Positions 15,191 to 22,513 of a stretch of DNA of 64,000 bases are shown here, one piece after another. The DNA comes from Arthrobacter sp. B1805 (GTDB lineage: Bacteria > Actinomycetota > Actinomycetes > Actinomycetales > Micrococcaceae): contig NZ_PJIQ01000015.1 in assembly GCF_002929745.1 (NCBI RefSeq), forward strand, positions 1-64,000, read 5' to 3'. How positions within the stretch are numbered: position 1 is the first letter of the stretch; every line of letters starts with the position of its first letter. The notes below the pieces were generated by a model that was given only the letters and a program-made list of their open reading frames with translations, searched no databases and had not been told where the DNA came from. The position numbers and the translations under genes are program-made.

Positions 15191-16014
15191 ACCGCCACCG
15201 GCGCCTTGATGGTCGGGTGGTGCTGGTAGTCGACCACGTCGAAGTCCTCCAGGGTGTAGTCGAAGATACTCTCGGGCTTCCGTTTCAGTTCGACGCGGGG
15301 ATAGGGGTACGGCGCACGCGACAATTGCTCCGTGACCTGCTCCACGTGGTTGTCGTACACGTGGACGTCGCCGCCGGTCCAGATGAACTCGCCGGGCTCG
15401 AGACCGGTCTGCTGGGCCACCATCAGGGTCAGCAGGGCGTAGGACGCGATGTTGAACGGTACCCCCAGGAACGTGTCGGCTGAACGCTGGTACAGCTGGC
15501 AGGACAAGGTGCCGGGGCTCCCGTCGACCCCCGGGCTCACGTAGAACTGGAAGAACACATGGCACGGGGGGAGCGCCATATTGGAGATCTCCGACACGTT
15601 CCAGGCCGACACGAGGTGCCGGCGCGAGTCGGGATTGGTCTTCAGGGCTTCGACCACCTGCGCGATCTGGTCGATGTGCCCGCCGTCAGGTGTCGGCCAC
15701 GAACGCCACTGCACGCCGTACACCGGGCCGAGCTCGCCGTCGTCGTCGGCCCACTCGTTCCAGATCGACACGCCCCGCTCCTGGAGCCAGCGGACGTTCG
15801 AGTCGCCGCGGAGGAACCAGAGCAGTTCGAGTGCGACGGACTTGAAGTGCACGCGCTTGGTGGTGATGAGCGGGAAGGACTCGCGGAGATCGAAACGCAA
15901 CTGCCGGCCGAAGACGCTTCGCGTTCCGGTGCCCGTCCTGTCACTCTTCGCCGCGCCGTTCGCCATCACATCGCGCAGCAGATCCTCATAGGGGGTGGGA
16001 ATGGGGGTGCTCAC
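15187..16014 (-). CDS. thyA: Thymidylate synthase
   Basis: 275 residues; methylates dUMP to dTMP with methylene-tetrahydrofolate. [15 protein letters not shown] holds the catalytic Cys151; RRHLVSAWN and [10 protein letters not shown] are folate/dUMP-binding landmarks, and [11 protein letters not shown] is the dUMP loop. The start is GTG at 16014, without a Shine-Dalgarno; TAGACT ends six bases before it, so the mRNA may be leaderless. thyA and folA form one coupled unit. Confidence 0.97.
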
Positions 16015-16134: not shown

Positions 16135-19100
16135 GTGACCATTCCCTCGCCCGAGACCACCGCCGCGCCCTACCCCGCACAGTTCGTGGCATCCGGGCTC
16201 GCACCGGACCCCCGTACGCTCCTCGACATCCTGCGAGCGACCGCCGCGGCCCACCCCGACGCGTCGGCGCTCGACGACGGAACGGCCGCGCTCAGCTACG
16301 CGGAACTCGTCGCCGCGGCCGAAGAGTTCGCGGAGGCGCTGCGCGGCGCCGGCGTAGGCCGCGGTGATGCGGTGGGAGTCCGCATCCCGTCGGGAACCAA
16401 CGAGCTCTACATCGCGATCCTCGGCGTATTGTCGGCCGGTGCCGCCTACGTCCCGGTGGACGCGGACGACCCCGACGAGCGGGCCCGGGTCGTGTTCGCG
16501 GAGTCCCGCGTGGTCGCGGTCGTAGGACAGGGCCTCTCGGTGGCCGCGGGAGCAGGCCGGAGCAGTGGGGCCACCGGCCATCCTACGCCCGACGACGACG
16601 CCTGGATCATCTTCACCTCCGGTTCCACGGGCACGCCGAAGGGAGTGGCCGTGACACACCGATCGGCAGCGGCTTTCGTCGACGCCGAGGCCCGGCTCTT
16701 CCTCCAGCGTGAGCCCATCGGGCCGGCCGATCGTGTCCTCGCCGGTCTGTCCGTCGCGTTCGACGCCTCCTGCGAGGAGATGTGGTTGGCGTGGCGGAAC
16801 GGGGCCTGCCTCGTGCCGGCCCCCCGTGCGCTCGTGCGTACCGGCATGGACCTGGGGCCGTGGCTGATAGCACGGGGGATCACCGTCGTTTCCACGGTGC
16901 CTACCCTGGCAGCGCTGTGGCCTTCGGATTCCCTCGAGAACGTGAGGTTGCTGATCTTCGGCGGTGAGGCCTGCCCTCCCGAACTCGCGCAGCGCCTCGC
17001 GGTCCATGACCGCGAGGTCTGGAACACGTACGGGCCCACCGAGGCCACCGTCGTCGCGTGCGCCGCGCGCCTCGGCGGTCCGGGGCCGGTCCGGATCGGC
17101 TTGCCACTGGACGGCTGGGACCTCGCGGTCGTCGACGAGGCCGGCATCCCGGTGGAGGAGGGCGCCACGGGAGAGCTGATCATCGGGGGAGTGGGCCTGG
17201 CCCGCTACCTCGACCCGGCCAAGGACGCCGAGAAGTACGCCCCGATGCCCACCCTCGGCTGGGACCGTGCCTACCGCTCCGGGGACCTCGTGCAGCTCGA
17301 GTCCGCCGGACTGGTCTTCGCAGGCCGGGCGGACGACCAGGTGAAGCTGGGCGGTCGCCGCATCGAACTCGGCGAGGTGGACGCCGCCCTCCAGTCGTTG
17401 CCGGGCATCGCCGGTGCTGCCTCGGCAGTGCAGACGACGCCCTCCGGCAATCAACTGCTCGTGGGCTACCTCGTCCCCGCCAGCGGTGAGCCCGACCTCG
17501 CTGAGCTCCGGGACCTCCTCGCGGACCGCCTTCCCGCAGCGCTCGTGCCGCTGCTGACCGTCACCGCGTCGCTTCCCACGAAGACCAGCGGCAAGGTGGA
17601 CCGCAACGCCCTGCCCTGGCCACTCGCCGACGTCGGCGGACCGGGCGACCCGCAGGACCTCGACCCGCGCGTGCAGTGGATCGCGGACCAGTGGGCTGCC
17701 GTCCTGGGCGCCGTCGCGACCGACGAGGACGCCGATTTCTTCCTGCACGGCGGAGGTTCCCTCGCCGCTGCCCGGCTCGTCTCGCTGATTCGGGTGCGCT
17801 ACCCGGTGATCACCGTCGCGGACATCTACGCGCACCCCCGGCTCGGGGCACTCGCAGCGTTCGCCGCGAGCACGGGCGACGGCGGCGAGCAACCGGCAGC
17901 GCCCGTCAGGACGGTCCGGGGCACCGCCCGCAGGTCGCAGGTCTTCCAGACCATCATGGGCATCCCGCTGCAGTTCCTCGCCGGCATGCGCTGGCTGACC
18001 TACGCGATGATCGCGAGCAACGTGCTCGCCGGCGTCGGCATCCTCACTGCCGCGCCCACACTGTCCTGGTGGTGGGTCGCGCTGTCCTGGGTCGTCTTCG
18101 TCAGCCCGTTCGGCCGCATGGCACTGTCCGTCCTCGCAGCACGCATGCTCCTCGGCCGGGTGGAGCCGGGCGTCTACCCGCGTTCCGGCAAGGTGCACCT
18201 GCGTCTCTGGCTGGCCGAGCAGATCTCGGACAGCGTCGGGGCCGTCAGCCTGGCGAGCGCTCCCTGGGTGCCCGTCTACGCGAGGGCGCTCGGCGCGAGG
18301 ATCGGGCCCGACGTCGCACTCCACTCCGTGCCGCCCGTGACAGGGCTCCTCACCCTCGGTGCCGGCGCATCGGTGGAACCTGAAGTGGACCTGTCCGGGT
18401 GGTGGATCGACGGGGACCGTGTCCATATCGGCGCCGTGACGATCGGGGCGGGAGCAGTCGTCGGTGCCCGGAGCACGCTGATGCCCGGGACGCGGATCGG
18501 AGCCGGTGCGGAAGTCGCCCCGGGGTCCGCGGTCCAGGGCGTCGTCAAGCCGGGTCATCTCGTCTCCGGATCACCTGCGACACGAGCCGGCAAGGCGAAG
18601 CGGGACTGGCCGGAAGCCCCACCCGCGCAGTCCCGGCTACGTGCCCGCCTGGCGTTCGTGGCGTTCGCTGCTGCGTCCGGCGCCCTGTCACTCATCCCGT
18701 ACGTTGCCGCCGTCGTCGCGTCCCTGCCGGTCCTGGCCGCGCTCCGGGGCGCGCCCTCCCTGTCGGCCGCCGGGCCGTCGCTGCTGGGAGTGGTCGTTCT
18801 TGCGGCCGTCCTCTGGCTCGTCACGAACGCGCTCCTCGTACTCGTCACGGTTCGCCTGCTCGGCCTCGGGCTGCGGGAGGGACACTACGCGGCACGCAGC
18901 CGGATCGGCTGGCAGATCTGGGCGACCGAACGCGTCCTCGACCTCGCGCGCGACATCCTCTTCCCCCTGTATGCGAGCCTCTTCACGCCCGTCTGGCTGC
19001 GACTGCTCGGCGCCCGCGTGGGCAGGAACGTGGAGGCCTCCACCGTCCTGCTGATACCGAAGATGACCACGATCAGCGAGGGTGCCTTCCTCGCGGACGA

Positions 19101-20046
19101 CACCATGGTGGCTTCCTACGAACTCGGCGGCGGGTACCTCCGCATCGCTCCCGCGAAGATCGGCCGGCGCGCGTTCCTCGGCAACTCGGGCATGACGTCG
19201 GCGGGACGACGCGTCCCGAAGAACTCGCTCGTCGCGGTTCTCTCCGCGACGCCGGCCAAGGCGAAGGCCGGCAGCTCGTGGCTGGGGAGTCCGCCGTCGC
19301 GGTTGCGCCGTCTCGCCGTCACGGGGGACCAGAGCCGTACCTTCCAGCCGCCCCGCCGGCTCAAGGCCGCCCGGGCCTTCTGGGAGCTCTGCCGCGTGGT
19401 GCCGATCATCCTGACCGTGATGATCGCTGCGACGTCGCTCGTGGTCTTCGATGCCCTGGCCCTCCGGGGCGGGTACGCGCTGGCCGCAGTACTGAGCGGC
19501 ATCGTCTTCATGGTGCTCGGCGCCATTGCTGCCGGGAGCGCTGTCGTGGCGAAGTGGCTCCTCGTGGGACGGATCGCTGCGGGGGAACACCCGCTGTGGA
19601 GTTCCTTCATCTGGCGCAACGAGGTCGTGGACACCTTCATCGAGAGCGTCAGCGCGCCCTGGTTCGCCCGGGCCGCCAGCGGAACCCCGGCGCTGGTCTG
19701 GTGGCTCCGCGCGCTGGGCTCCCGGATCGGGTCAGGAGTCTGGTGCGAGAGTTACTGGCTGCCCGAGGCAGACCTCGTGACGCTCGGCAGCGGTTCGACG
19801 GTCAACCGCGGGTGCGTGGTGCAGACCCATCTCTTCCATGACAGGATCATGAGCATGGACACCGTGGAGCTCGCCGCAGGAGCAACCCTGGGCCCGCACA
19901 GCGTGATCCTTCCGGCTGCTGACATCGCCACGGGCGCCACCGTGGGACCGGCGTCGCTCGTGATGCGCGGCGAGACCGTCCCCGCTGGAAGCTACTGGAT
20001 GGGGAATCCCGTCAGTTCCTGGTCCGGTCCGGGGGACGGTGCGTGA
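16135..20046 (+). CDS. Membrane-bound Pls/PosA-type nonribosomal peptide synthetase
   Basis: 1303 residues in one chain. Adenylation domain at about 25-500: IIFTSGSTGTPKG (158-170), NTYGPTEATV (297-306), YRSGDLV (380-386), GRADDQVKLGGRRIELGEV (397-415) and PTKTSGKVDR with Lys487. Carrier domain at 505-580 with phosphopantetheine Ser542 (HGGGSLAAAR). Then three repeats of a transmembrane pair plus a left-handed beta-helix acyltransferase-like module: membrane 603-672 and helix 717-815; membrane 838-908 and helix 957-1045; membrane 1082-1145 and helix 1192-1295. This matches the A-T-(membrane-C)x3 plan of epsilon-poly-L-lysine synthetase (Pls), which makes a homopolymer without a condensation or thioesterase domain. 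Starts at GTG 16135 after GGAAG; the longer frame into thyA is rejected. Product unknown. Confidence 0.9.
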   Translation: MTIPSPETTAAPYPAQFVASGLAPDPRTLLDILRATAAAHPDASALDDGTAALSYAELVAAAEEFAEALRGAGVGRGDAVGVRIPSGTNELYIAILGVLSAGAAYVPVDADDPDERARVVFAESRVVAVVGQGLSVAAGAGRSSGATGHPTPDDDAWIIFTSGSTGTPKGVAVTHRSAAAFVDAEARLFLQREPIGPADRVLAGLSVAFDASCEEMWLAWRNGACLVPAPRALVRTGMDLGPWLIARGITVVSTVPTLAALWPSDSLENVRLLIFGGEACPPELAQRLAVHDREVWNTYGPTEATVVACAARLGGPGPVRIGLPLDGWDLAVVDEAGIPVEEGATGELIIGGVGLARYLDPAKDAEKYAPMPTLGWDRAYRSGDLVQLESAGLVFAGRADDQVKLGGRRIELGEVDAALQSLPGIAGAASAVQTTPSGNQLLVGYLVPASGEPDLAELRDLLADRLPAALVPLLTVTASLPTKTSGKVDRNALPWPLADVGGPGDPQDLDPRVQWIADQWAAVLGAVATDEDADFFLHGGGSLAAARLVSLIRVRYPVITVADIYAHPRLGALAAFAASTGDGGEQPAAPVRTVRGTARRSQVFQTIMGIPLQFLAGMRWLTYAMIASNVLAGVGILTAAPTLSWWWVALSWVVFVSPFGRMALSVLAARMLLGRVEPGVYPRSGKVHLRLWLAEQISDSVGAVSLASAPWVPVYARALGARIGPDVALHSVPPVTGLLTLGAGASVEPEVDLSGWWIDGDRVHIGAVTIGAGAVVGARSTLMPGTRIGAGAEVAPGSAVQGVVKPGHLVSGSPATRAGKAKRDWPEAPPAQSRLRARLAFVAFAAASGALSLIPYVAAVVASLPVLAALRGAPSLSAAGPSLLGVVVLAAVLWLVTNALLVLVTVRLLGLGLREGHYAARSRIGWQIWATERVLDLARDILFPLYASLFTPVWLRLLGARVGRNVEASTVLLIPKMTTISEGAFLADDTMVASYELGGGYLRIAPAKIGRRAFLGNSGMTSAGRRVPKNSLVAVLSATPAKAKAGSSWLGSPPSRLRRLAVTGDQSRTFQPPRRLKAARAFWELCRVVPIILTVMIAATSLVVFDALALRGGYALAAVLSGIVFMVLGAIAAGSAVVAKWLLVGRIAAGEHPLWSSFIWRNEVVDTFIESVSAPWFARAASGTPALVWWLRALGSRIGSGVWCESYWLPEADLVTLGSGSTVNRGCVVQTHLFHDRIMSMDTVELAAGATLGPHSVILPAADIATGATVGPASLVMRGETVPAGSYWMGNPVSSWSGPGDGA

Positions 20047-21410
20047 GCAGTAGTCCCGAGAGCGCTGCGCCGGACGCGTACACGCCGGACAACGGCAGCA
20101 CCTCCTATCGCGTAGGGCACTACGACCTCACCCTCGACTACAAGCTGGCCAGCAACCGGCTGTCCGGGCGCGCTGTCCTCACGATGACGGCGCAGCGGGA
20201 GCTGCAGGGGCTGGAACTCGACCTGGGCGGCCTCCGCACCACCAAGGTCACGTCCGATACCGTTCGCATCCGGTCCTTCAAGGACCGGGCGGGAAAGCTC
20301 GTGGTCGCCTTCCGGGACGCGGTGCCCGACGACGCGGAGTTCCGGCTCGAGATCCGGTACGAGGGAAATCCGGCACCGACCTCCGGCACCTGGGGCGACG
20401 TCGGGTGGGAGGAACTGACCGACGGCGTCCTCGTCGCCGGTCAGCCCACCGGAGCGCCGTCCTGGTTCCCGTGCAACGACCACCCGTCGAACAAGGCCTC
20501 CTACCGGTTCACGGTGACGACCGATGCCGGTTACCGTGCGATCTGCAACGGGGTCCTCGTCTCCCGCATCGCCAAGTCCAGCCGGACCACCTGGGTGTAC
20601 GAGCAGGCGGAGCCGATGGCGACCTACCTCGCGACCGTCCAGATCGGCCGGTACGAGCTCGTCGCCCTGAACGATCCCGCCCAGCCCGCCGTGGCCCTCC
20701 CCGGCCACGCCGCACAGCGGGACCCGGGGGCCCCCGTTCCGCAGTACGCCGCCGTGCCGCCGTCGCTCGTGCCGGCCGCGAAGACGTCGCTCGCGAGGAA
20801 CCACGAGATGATGTCGACGTTCGAGGATCGCTTCGGGCCGTACCCCTTCCCCCAGTACGTCGTGGTGGTCGCCGACGATGAACTGGAGATCCCGCTCGAG
20901 GCCCAGACGCTCTCCATCATCGGCCGGAACCACCTCCGCCAGGACTGGGACGCACAGCGGTTGATCGCCCACGAACTCGCGCACCAGTGGTTCGGCAACG
21001 CGGTCACGGCAGCGCGCTGGCAGGACATCTGGCTCCACGAGGGGTTCGCCTGCTACGCCGAGTGGATCTGGTCCGAGGCCAGCGGATCGACGACGGCGGA
21101 TGCGCGGGCACGCTCGACCCACGAGCGGCTCAGCGCCGAGCGCCAGGACCTCGCCGTCGGTGATCCGGGCGCTCCTGAGATGTTCGACGACCGTGTCTAC
21201 AAGCGGGGTGCCCTCGCTCTGCACGTGCTGCGGACCGCGGCGGGCGACGACGCCTTCTTCATGCTGCTGCGTTCCTGGACGGAGGCGCACCGGTTCGCCT
21301 CCGTCACCACGCCGGACTTCATCGCGCTCGCGGCCCGATCGCTGGCCGGGGTCGACGTCGAGGTACTGCTGACACGCTGGCTGTTCACGGAGGAGCTGCC
21401 GGCCCTGTGA
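20043..21410 (+). CDS. M1-family zinc aminopeptidase coupled to the Pls-like synthetase
   Basis: 455 residues, the short actinobacterial form of the M1 family (classical members are about 850). HELAH (310-314) and the Glu 19 residues later (WLHEGF, E333) complete the HExxH-x18-E zinc site; the usual GAMEN loop is replaced by IPLEAQT. No signal peptide. The GTG start overlaps the synthetase stop (GTGA, 20043-20046), so the two proteins are made together. Zinc aminopeptidases that degrade epsilon-poly-lysine are known from its producers, so this enzyme may trim or recycle the neighbouring synthetase's product (inference). Confidence 0.9.
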   Translation: MSSSPESAAPDAYTPDNGSTSYRVGHYDLTLDYKLASNRLSGRAVLTMTAQRELQGLELDLGGLRTTKVTSDTVRIRSFKDRAGKLVVAFRDAVPDDAEFRLEIRYEGNPAPTSGTWGDVGWEELTDGVLVAGQPTGAPSWFPCNDHPSNKASYRFTVTTDAGYRAICNGVLVSRIAKSSRTTWVYEQAEPMATYLATVQIGRYELVALNDPAQPAVALPGHAAQRDPGAPVPQYAAVPPSLVPAAKTSLARNHEMMSTFEDRFGPYPFPQYVVVVADDELEIPLEAQTLSIIGRNHLRQDWDAQRLIAHELAHQWFGNAVTAARWQDIWLHEGFACYAEWIWSEASGSTTADARARSTHERLSAERQDLAVGDPGAPEMFDDRVYKRGALALHVLRTAAGDDAFFMLLRSWTEAHRFASVTTPDFIALAARSLAGVDVEVLLTRWLFTEELPAL

Positions 21411-21413
21411 GCA

Positions 21414-22151
21414 TCACCCCCTGCGCTCCGTTCTGAGCGGGGTGACGGCGAGGGCAGCCACGAGGCCTTCCGGCTCGAGGGCGATGCCGTCCACGCCCTG
21501 CAGGTCCTGGATCCGTCCGTCCCGCAGGACATCCACCTGACTGGGGTCCCTGTCGGCGAAGCCTGTCCCGAGGGCCTTGAGCAGCGCTTCCTTCCGTGTC
21601 CACAAGCGGGTACGCGCGGCGGCTCGCTGCACCTCGGGAAGCCGGCCGACGTCATCCCGCTCCGCCCGAGTGAGCGCTACGTCGTCGAAGCCGTCGAAAG
21701 CCGTGCCGGGCACCGACTCGAGATCCACGCCGACACCGACACCGCAGGCACCGGGCACCGGATCGGCACCACGCGTGTCGAGGGCTGCGAGCAGGACGAA
21801 TCCGGCGGCCCGCGAGAGGCTGAGGGCCAGCGGGACGGGTTCGCCGTTCAGGGAGTAGCCGGGGCGGCCATGGTCCGGCAGCCCCTGCTCCGACCCGCAG
21901 GAGAGGCACGTGAAGCACGAGGCGAGGTCGGACACCCGGACGTCCAGCAGATCGGCCGCCAGCAGGCGCTGCGCGTACCGGCCGGCGACGAAGGAGGAAC
22001 GTGTACCGGTGTCCTGCATCCGCGCTGCCCGGGCGCGCTCCGCCCCGTCGAGGACCGACAGCATCTCAGCGACCGGCGGCAGGGCGGTGCCTTCCGCAGT
22101 ACGGAGCAGGCGAAGGGCCACACTGTTCGTGGGGATCTGCGGCCGGTTCAC
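21414..22151 (-). CDS. 4'-phosphopantetheinyl transferase (Sfp type)
   Basis: 245 residues. Moves phosphopantetheine from CoA onto the conserved serine of carrier domains. GVGVDLESV (139-147) holds the magnesium ligands and WTRKEALLKALG (184-195) the second metal/catalytic motif; both are the Sfp/EntD hallmarks. A CFTCLSC cluster at 80-85 may bind a metal. Start is GTG at 22151 with GAGG upstream. It converges on the M1 peptidase with only 3 bases between stops, and is the natural activator of Ser542 in the Pls-like synthetase two genes away. Confidence 0.92.
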   Translation of the reverse strand: MNRPQIPTNSVALRLLRTAEGTALPPVAEMLSVLDGAERARAARMQDTGTRSSFVAGRYAQRLLAADLLDVRVSDLASCFTCLSCGSEQGLPDHGRPGYSLNGEPVPLALSLSRAAGFVLLAALDTRGADPVPGACGVGVGVDLESVPGTAFDGFDDVALTRAERDDVGRLPEVQRAAARTRLWTRKEALLKALGTGFADRDPSQVDVLRDGRIQDLQGVDGIALEPEGLVAALAVTPLRTERRG

Positions 22152-22273: not shown

Positions 22274-22513
22274 CTAGTGGCGGACGCCGAACAGCTCGGC
22301 GCACACATCCTCGCGCAGCACGAAGGGGCGGGGGCGGTCGCGGTCGGCGGGAGTCCCGTAGACGTAGTAGCCACGGCCCTCGCCGGGGCCGCCGGCCGCG
22401 CGGTCGATCGCGTGCAGGAGCTTGGGCGTGAGTGGCCCGGCAGGGCCGATGCTGTGGATCTCCTCGATCTCGTGCGGCGCCAGGCCCCGCACGAGGCTCT
22501 TCACATCGGCCAT
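22274..22513 (-). CDS. Small hypothetical protein
   Basis: 79 residues from the ATG at 22513 (MADVKSLVRGLAPHEIEEI ...), or 98 from an in-frame GTG at 22570; neither has a strong ribosome site. Hydrophilic, with a Gly-rich middle and a FVLREDVCAELFG end. No family recognised. It lies alone between the phosphopantetheinyl transferase and MutT1 genes, all on the minus strand. Confidence 0.45.
   Translation of the reverse strand: MADVKSLVRGLAPHEIEEIHSIGPAGPLTPKLLHAIDRAAGGPGEGRGYYVYGTPADRDRPRPFVLREDVCAELFGVRH

Follow-up and report, generated by a model that had tools for sequence, protein, structure and literature searches.

A predicted epsilon-poly-L-lysine synthetase locus with a coupled M1 peptidase and a linked phosphopantetheinyl transferase in Arthrobacter sp. 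B1805

The pls locus and its synthetase

We looked at a locus in a 64,000-nucleotide stretch of DNA from Arthrobacter sp. B1805 (contig NZ_PJIQ01000015.1, positions 1 to 64,000, hereafter the window), in which three neighbouring genes encode a predicted epsilon-poly-L-lysine synthetase (Pls), a zinc peptidase of the M1 family and an Sfp-type 4'-phosphopantetheinyl transferase (PPTase). Epsilon-poly-L-lysine (epsilon-PL) is an antimicrobial polymer that is made by Streptomyces fermentation and sold as a food preservative. Given the domains and motifs, the lysine code of the substrate pocket, the operon overlap, the fold of the terminal domain and the linkage and co-occurrence of the PPTase, all read here from the sequence or from a model, it is very likely that the locus is a complete epsilon-PL module. 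The features are collected in Table 1.

Table 1. Features of the pls locus (aa, amino acids; TM, transmembrane; ORF, open reading frame)
Feature	Position	Strand	Remarks
pls, predicted epsilon-poly-L-lysine synthetase	16135..20046	+	A-T-(TM pair/left-handed beta-helix)x3, 1303 aa
Adenylation (A) domain core, residues 34-357	16234..17205	+	PF00501 AMP-binding, 211 bits
Thiolation (T, carrier) domain PP-binding, residues 514-576	17674..17862	+	PF00550
Membrane/beta-helix terminal domain, modules C1, C2, C3	17941..20013	+	TIGR02353, residues 603-1293
M1 zinc peptidase, PldII-like, 455 aa	20043..21410	+	PF01433, 105 bits; also PF17900
Sfp-type 4'-phosphopantetheinyl transferase, 245 aa	21414..22151	-	PF01648, 46 bits vs cut-off 25
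79-aa conserved ORF (MADVKSLVRGLAPHEIEEIHSIGP...), fourth block gene	22274..22513	-	block at the thyA/mutT site

The mechanical ORF of pls begins at 15559. Since the closest named relative of the window Pls, that of Arthrobacter sp. SX1312 (locus L066, 88% identity over 1302 positions), aligns over residues 1 to 1303, the start was set at the GTG codon at 16135. The original prediction had described a 1303-residue synthetase with A and T domains and three membrane-pair/beta-helix modules, and this architecture was recovered by Pfam, TIGR02353 and an AlphaFold model. It had also denied the protein a condensation or thioesterase domain, and neither family was found in Pls by the Pfam scan, for which all 4 families were listed. 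The domain search that it had proposed as a check matched AMP-binding, PP-binding and TIGR02353, the last above its curated cut-off: in the NCBIfam search, with the best 25 of 104 matches listed, the whole profile (1-695 of 695) aligned to Pls at 699 bits against a cut-off of 423.1 (E = 5e-210). Pfam further detected a hexapeptide repeat at residues 768-800. Among the five TIGR02353 matches of the host genome (3.8 Mb, 79 contigs), one exceeds the cut-off, and it is the window Pls. The carrier motif HGGGSL starts at residue 538 with its serine present; this serine is kept in 175 of 177 aligned rows, the remaining two having a gap and a Gln.

The closest solved chain to the A domain, out of 166 matched PDB sequences, was 7wew (Epsilon-poly-L-lysine synthase, 665 bits), the A domain of the Streptomyces albulus enzyme, with 69% identity over 466 aligned positions. 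The pocket code of the window Pls, DAESIGTVVK, is the same as that of 7wew at all ten residues (D210, A211, E214, S253, I274, G276, T298, V306, V307 and, further on, K487, the code positions being those defined on gramicidin synthetase). For comparison, we sorted the loci of related genomes by identity to the window into clade A (at least 60%), group B (about 50%) and group C (about 30%), leaving out of the counts the G141 locus (clade A, pls with stops), the group-B loci of G092, G100 and G081, and fragments in G054 and G145 C19. DAESIGTVVK was found in all 66 clade-A family loci and in 78 of 80 named loci, the two others being broken in that frame and DAESIGTVIK, respectively. Group B had DAESIGTVIK (13/17) or DAESIGTVVK (4/17), and group C had DFECLSVVTK in 11 of 12 loci, the twelfth being a partial copy that lacks letters there. 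Code position 2 is reported to be Ala in lysine enzymes, Met in the ornithine enzyme PosA, and Phe in enzymes for short diamino acids (poly-diaminopropionate, PDAP, and poly-diaminobutyrate, PDAB; PMC10522769). By this rule the window Pls, with Ala211 instead of the Met or Phe of PosA, PDAP and PDAB enzymes, is predicted to use lysine, and the group-C synthetases perhaps use a shorter diamino acid. Because the pocket is identical to that of a solved epsilon-PL synthetase A domain, naming epsilon-PL as the product, and not merely some cationic homopolymer as originally proposed, is justified as a prediction.

The placement of the protein was looked at in three trees. A quick A-domain tree of 73 rows put the window in a 46-row clade with 7wew (Shimodaira-Hasegawa-like approximate likelihood ratio test, 99), and in a careful A-domain tree their common ancestor also took in group B, with weak support (44/93). 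In a quick full-length tree of 69 rows, for which L036 (A domain 92% identical to 7wew) stood in for S. albulus, Pls and group B were split from group C (support 100) and the window fell in a clade of 23 rows (support 99), the others being 16 family rows of clade A and six named ones, the latter all Micrococcaceae. The trees leave out C. (Corynebacterium) variabile Pls, PosA and other proven synthetases, and PosA was compared by its code as given in PMC10522769. Judged from these trees, the window Pls belongs to the lysine-code superclade. A horizontal transfer of the cassette into the genus had been suggested by the quick A-domain tree, which placed the window's trio outside other Micrococcaceae; it was dropped in view of the Micrococcaceae clade of the full-length tree.

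We then modelled Pls residues 590-1303 (714 residues) with AlphaFold2 from 41 aligned sequences. The best of five models contains three pairs of long helices, each followed by a beta-helix, with a mean predicted local distance difference test score (pLDDT) of 89.5 and a predicted template-modelling score of 0.90; pLDDT ranged from 75.5 to 89.5 across the five. The model thus points to three TM-pair/beta-helix modules in the window Pls, their placement in the membrane being itself a prediction. Foldseek gave 35 PDB matches at E <=0.001, led by serine acetyltransferase and other hexapeptide acyltransferases (best E 4e-5), and since the template-modelling scores by query length are at most 0.17 among the 50 rows listed, these matches cover about one module at a time. 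The PosA terminal domain was modelled earlier as three beta-helices with approximate threefold symmetry (PMC10522769). Across 176 synthetase rows (groups A, B and C and named loci), 39 terminal-domain positions are conserved in at least 96.5%, and H1232 of the C3 module, in the setting Q-x-H-x-x-x-D, is the only His among them. We propose it as a candidate catalytic residue, as a lead only, because D988, N1017, R1059, E1163, R1192, E1211 and others are equally conserved, which weighs against singling it out.

The M1 peptidase and the phosphopantetheinyl transferase

The original prediction had a zinc aminopeptidase translationally coupled to the synthetase, and both parts hold: besides its PF01433 match, the M1 protein has the catalytic core HELAH-x18-E (HELAHQWFGN..E) and a YKRG motif, and its GTG start at 20043 overlaps the pls stop TGA by 4 nt (GTGA). 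The G..EN pattern was looked for in the window M1 protein and is absent. Among M1 hits, 140 of 141 carry the HExxH-x18-E motif. An M1 gene lies directly 3' of pls at all 66 clade-A loci and at 69 of the 80 named ones, so that the pairing is not due to chance; the figures are 1 of 17 for group B and 0 of 12 for group C. At least three of the 11 named loci that have no adjacent M1 gene (L038, L081 and L082) are at contig ends.

As for its role, the S. albulus counterpart PldII is described as an epsilon-PL-degrading enzyme with a postulated function in self-protection (PMC8117764), and another paper describes pldII as translationally coupled to pls and reads the behaviour of S. albulus with repressed pldII as lost protection against epsilon-PL (PMC9223678). 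The three genes had been proposed to supply synthesis, activation and product trimming; the first two readings are supported, and the third calls for a correction. That M1 sets the length of the product chains and does not protect the producer, as first suggested, would suit a gene so strictly adjacent and coupled to pls, but in view of the PldII reports we regard it as unlikely, and the role of M1 is better read, by analogy, as polymer degradation or self-protection.

At three group-B loci (L191, L193 and L198), M1 and PPTase genes occur about 2.6-3.4 kb past the end of pls, not adjacent to it. The group-C synthetases L204-L214, from the same bacterial family, with about 30% identity and the code DFECLSVVTK, have no adjoining M1 partner.

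Sfp-type PPTases are proteins of about 230 aa with an ACPS superfamily domain and the motifs GVD.E and KE...K. Such an enzyme was predicted to face the synthetase, and the assignment holds: in addition to PF01648, the protein has GVDLE and, by eye, KEALLK, and its gene ends 3 nt past the M1 stop, the two genes lying tail to tail. It scores below the TIGR00556 cut-off (24.3 vs 45.35). We searched the flanks of the other loci (about 7 kb for clade A, 8 kb for named loci, contig permitting) with an iterated profile seeded on the window PPTase. Of the 66 clade-A loci, 56 have a PPTase within the fetched flanks (52 downstream on the opposite strand, four upstream), and none was found there at the other 10. 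Near named loci there were seven out of 80 (four Arthrobacter, one Pseudarthrobacter, one Humibacillus and one Brachybacterium, genera of the Micrococcales), and none was found by the profile in the flanks of the named Micrococcus (short contig), Kocuria and Planctomonas loci. In group B the profile hit near 8 of 17 loci and in group C near none of 12; it misses some PPTases, as PF01648 matches adjoin the group-C genes of G118 and G082 and, in G154 and G162, occur about 2-3 kb away from such genes.

The association is also seen at the level of whole genomes. Among 149 family genomes, at least two PF01648 matches, one of them AcpS as a rule, were found in 59 of 68 with clade-A pls vs 35 of 81 without it, and seven of the nine clade-A pls genomes that lack two matches have a PPTase near pls by profile. 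Of the 38 genomes of the genus (completeness 68-100%), 20 encode a Pls-family synthetase, which is of clade A in 18 and of group C alone in two. An Sfp-type PPTase was detected by search with the window protein in 19 of these 20 and in 0 of the 18 Pls-less genomes, and by PF01648 count in 20/20 vs 1/18 (Fisher p = 6e-10, with genome relatedness ignored). The one Pls-less genome with such a PPTase is G158, where about 17 kb separates the second PF01648 match from an open frame of 3151 aa that matches part of an A domain. The pls and PPTase genes of G159 and G167 lie on separate contigs. Because the PPTase gene is linked to pls and co-occurs with it in this phylogenetic profile, it probably switches the synthetase on.

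One could argue that the PPTase is a general enzyme that merely happens to be there and serves other carriers, for instance an A-T-acyltransferase protein on contig C49, since the host genome has two other PF00550 carriers (a fatty-acid-type acyl carrier protein and the C49 protein) and a single other PF01648 protein, which is AcpS-like. The genus argues against this: an Sfp-type PPTase was detected in none of 10 genomes with a C49-type protein and no Pls (0/7 when G160, G172 and G175, of lower completeness or with no AcpS hit, are omitted), but in 9 of 9 with Pls and no C49-type protein. Sfp-type PPTases track Pls, not the genome's other carrier enzyme. Together with the proximity of the PPTase to pls at most clade-A loci, not always on the same side, this makes a general enzyme improbable, and an activator of Pls the preferred reading.

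The C49 protein itself (L120, G000 contig C49:14094-16610) is an A-T-acyltransferase-like membrane protein of about 840 aa. Of the 38 congeners, its own genome included, 21 encode a match of at least 60% identity along most of the protein (in pieces in G160); no Sfp-type PPTase was found in 10 of the 21. In L220 (G169:C28:29097-29821), the PPTase match is in two pieces in different open frames, and the gene may be decayed or misread.

A link between a PPTase and Pls or poly-lysine was not found in the literature searched, a search that did not extend to papers behind subscriptions, among them the first reports of Pls and PldII. The PPTases mentioned in PMC4361855 concern polyketide synthase genes, and a C. 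glutamicum PPTase is named for heterologous synthesis in PMC11078359.

A four-gene block at the thyA/mutT site

To place the locus in its genomic context, the thyA-ppk interval was fetched from 20 of 37 congeners, of which 9 carry pls in it and 11 do not. In all ten carriers (the window and these 9) the genes follow in the order thyA (-), pls (+), M1 (+), PPTase (-), 79-aa ORF (-), mutT (-), ppk (-), pls being in several pieces in G168. None of the four block genes was found by tblastn (1e-4) in the interval of the 11 non-carriers. thyA and mutT are 24-215 nt apart in five of them and separated by 1.6-2.1 kb of other ORFs in six, these being by eye a MerR-like regulator plus a second ORF in one case and, in the other five, a membrane protein of about 550 aa. 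A clean empty site in all non-carriers was therefore rejected; the site is variable rather than simply empty or filled. G150 and G113, with the thyA proteins closest to the window's (97%), are non-carriers, and five clade-A carriers (G096, G167, G159, G170 and G173) have pls away from the thyA-ppk pair.

Neither Pfam nor NCBIfam gave a match to the 79-aa window protein at E up to 10. With up to 37 first-look candidates scored per genome, its ORF turned up in 11 of the 149 family genomes, each of which has a clade-A pls. We rejected it as a general partner of pls, as hits from outside the genus lie away from pls among mixed neighbours. In G096 (L213 6386-6622), a 41% identical 79-aa copy stands just upstream of, and divergent from, a group-C homopolymer synthetase. 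Two distant copies, at L242 and L247, are near ORFs that by eye resemble CYTH/CHAD proteins, with a polyphosphate-kinase-2-like ORF also at L247; the window copy is two genes from ppk, and this ppk-type neighbourhood is possibly chance.

In G149 (89% complete) pls appears split (C1:1913545 and C1:3052052): its first part still adjoins thyA, and the remainder is near the PPTase at a distance of about 1.1 Mb, owing to an assembly error or to a rearrangement through pls. In the window, a semialdehyde dehydrogenase gene (PF02774/PF01118; 13286-14425, -) lies outside the block, just past folA and thyA; should it be the aspartate-semialdehyde dehydrogenase of the lysine pathway, its closeness to pls could be meaningful or a coincidence.

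Predicted product, mechanism and known systems

Several points weigh against a straightforward reading of the locus as an active epsilon-PL module. Identity over the full length to the S. albulus-like Pls L036 is 55%. Group-B paralogues, whose code is almost identical, branch nearby, and the order around the proven enzyme has weak support in the careful A-domain tree (44/93). The M1 protein has no hydrophobic N-terminus (maximum 15-residue hydropathy 0.35), whereas PldII reportedly sits on the outer side of the membrane (PMC9223678). Moreover, C. variabile made no detectable epsilon-PL in culture, and it was likewise not detected in C. glutamicum expressing the C. variabile pls gene (PMC8117764), so that the cluster may be silent or need particular conditions. 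The stronger version, a silent or decayed locus without any product, could also invoke the C. variabile Pls that proteomics did not detect in culture (PMC8117764), but the three open frames of pls, M1 and PPTase, the intact pocket code, carrier Ser, HExxH and GVDLE motifs and the confident terminal-domain model make it quite unlikely. Another cationic polymer (poly-ornithine, poly-diaminobutyrate, poly-diaminopropionate or poly-beta-lysine) is very improbable as the product, for although the family makes all four and pocket codes are predictions only (PMC10522769), the window has the Ala of lysine enzymes at code position 2 and the complete 7wew pocket, and no aminomutase, transaminase or aspartate kinase was found among the 10 neighbouring proteins scanned. 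Epsilon-PL remains the predicted product, and that this strain makes the polymer is something that we infer.

The module would work as follows. The PPTase would place phosphopantetheine on the carrier serine of Pls, and the A domain, as predicted from its pocket and shown by others for relatives, would adenylate L-lysine and load the carrier. The membrane-embedded terminal domain, with its three left-handed beta-helices on three helix pairs, would then repeatedly join lysines via the epsilon-amine and release the polymer at or across the membrane, steps known in outline for the family and presumed for this protein, with H1232 in the third beta-helix, judging by its conservation, as the putative catalytic residue. 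The translationally coupled M1 enzyme, by its likeness to PldII, may degrade the polymer, mainly for self-protection or recycling. Polymerisation of lysine by Pls, the epsilon linkage and degradation by PldII are established for relatives in the papers cited here.

More broadly, we tentatively suggest, with less than even confidence in the whole, that Micrococcaceae-like bacteria inherit epsilon-PL synthesis as a self-sufficient cassette with a dedicated PPTase (joined in this lineage by an accessory protein of 79 aa, which also occurs beside a DFECLSVVTK-type homopolymer synthetase), that Pls activity would depend on this PPTase as AcpS cannot replace it, and that condensation may take place at a single site centred on H1232. 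A compact coryneform pls linked to an activating enzyme offers a possible, testable explanation of why pls on its own can fail in other hosts, and pls-M1-PPTase is a natural cassette that could be expressed as a whole. Since pls and PPTase are co-inherited in the genus and sister species have neither, the dependence is directly testable.

The locus is of a described kind, because the S. albulus pls-pldII overlap, coryneform Pls and Arthrobacter NAPAA clusters are on record: the core enzymology, the pls-peptidase operon and the presence of Pls homologues in Arthrobacter were already known. The new content is modest and consists of the dedicated-looking PPTase and the four-gene presence/absence block. 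NAPAA clusters, a genome-mining class, were reported by antiSMASH in the close relatives Pseudarthrobacter and Arthrobacter (PMC12025171), there as predictions only. The C. variabile Pls, 51% identical to the Streptomyces enzyme, makes epsilon-PL when expressed in S. coelicolor and is likewise a coryneform Pls in an operon with a peptidase (Jiang et al. 2021, PMC8117764); the same paper names Arthrobacter among the genera with Pls homologues. It differs in that a PPTase goes unmentioned in its main text (0 occurrences of phosphopantetheinyl, supplements not covered). The delta-poly-L-ornithine synthetase PosA shares the A-T-terminal-domain architecture (PMC10522769), and the closest solved chains to the window M1 are the M1 zinc metalloproteases 6a8z and 6iff (474 aa), matched over nearly the whole protein at 162 and 159 bits. 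Compared with S. albulus pls-pldII, no PPTase was found at the S. albulus-like L036, within 8 kb to each side of its A-domain match, by the window-seeded profile, which may miss distant ones, and the M1 protein adjoining that pls is only 42% identical to the window M1. The domain order, the 7wew pocket code and a peptidase gene directly downstream with a 4-nt overlap, as described for the S. albulus operon (PMC4361855), are the same in both.

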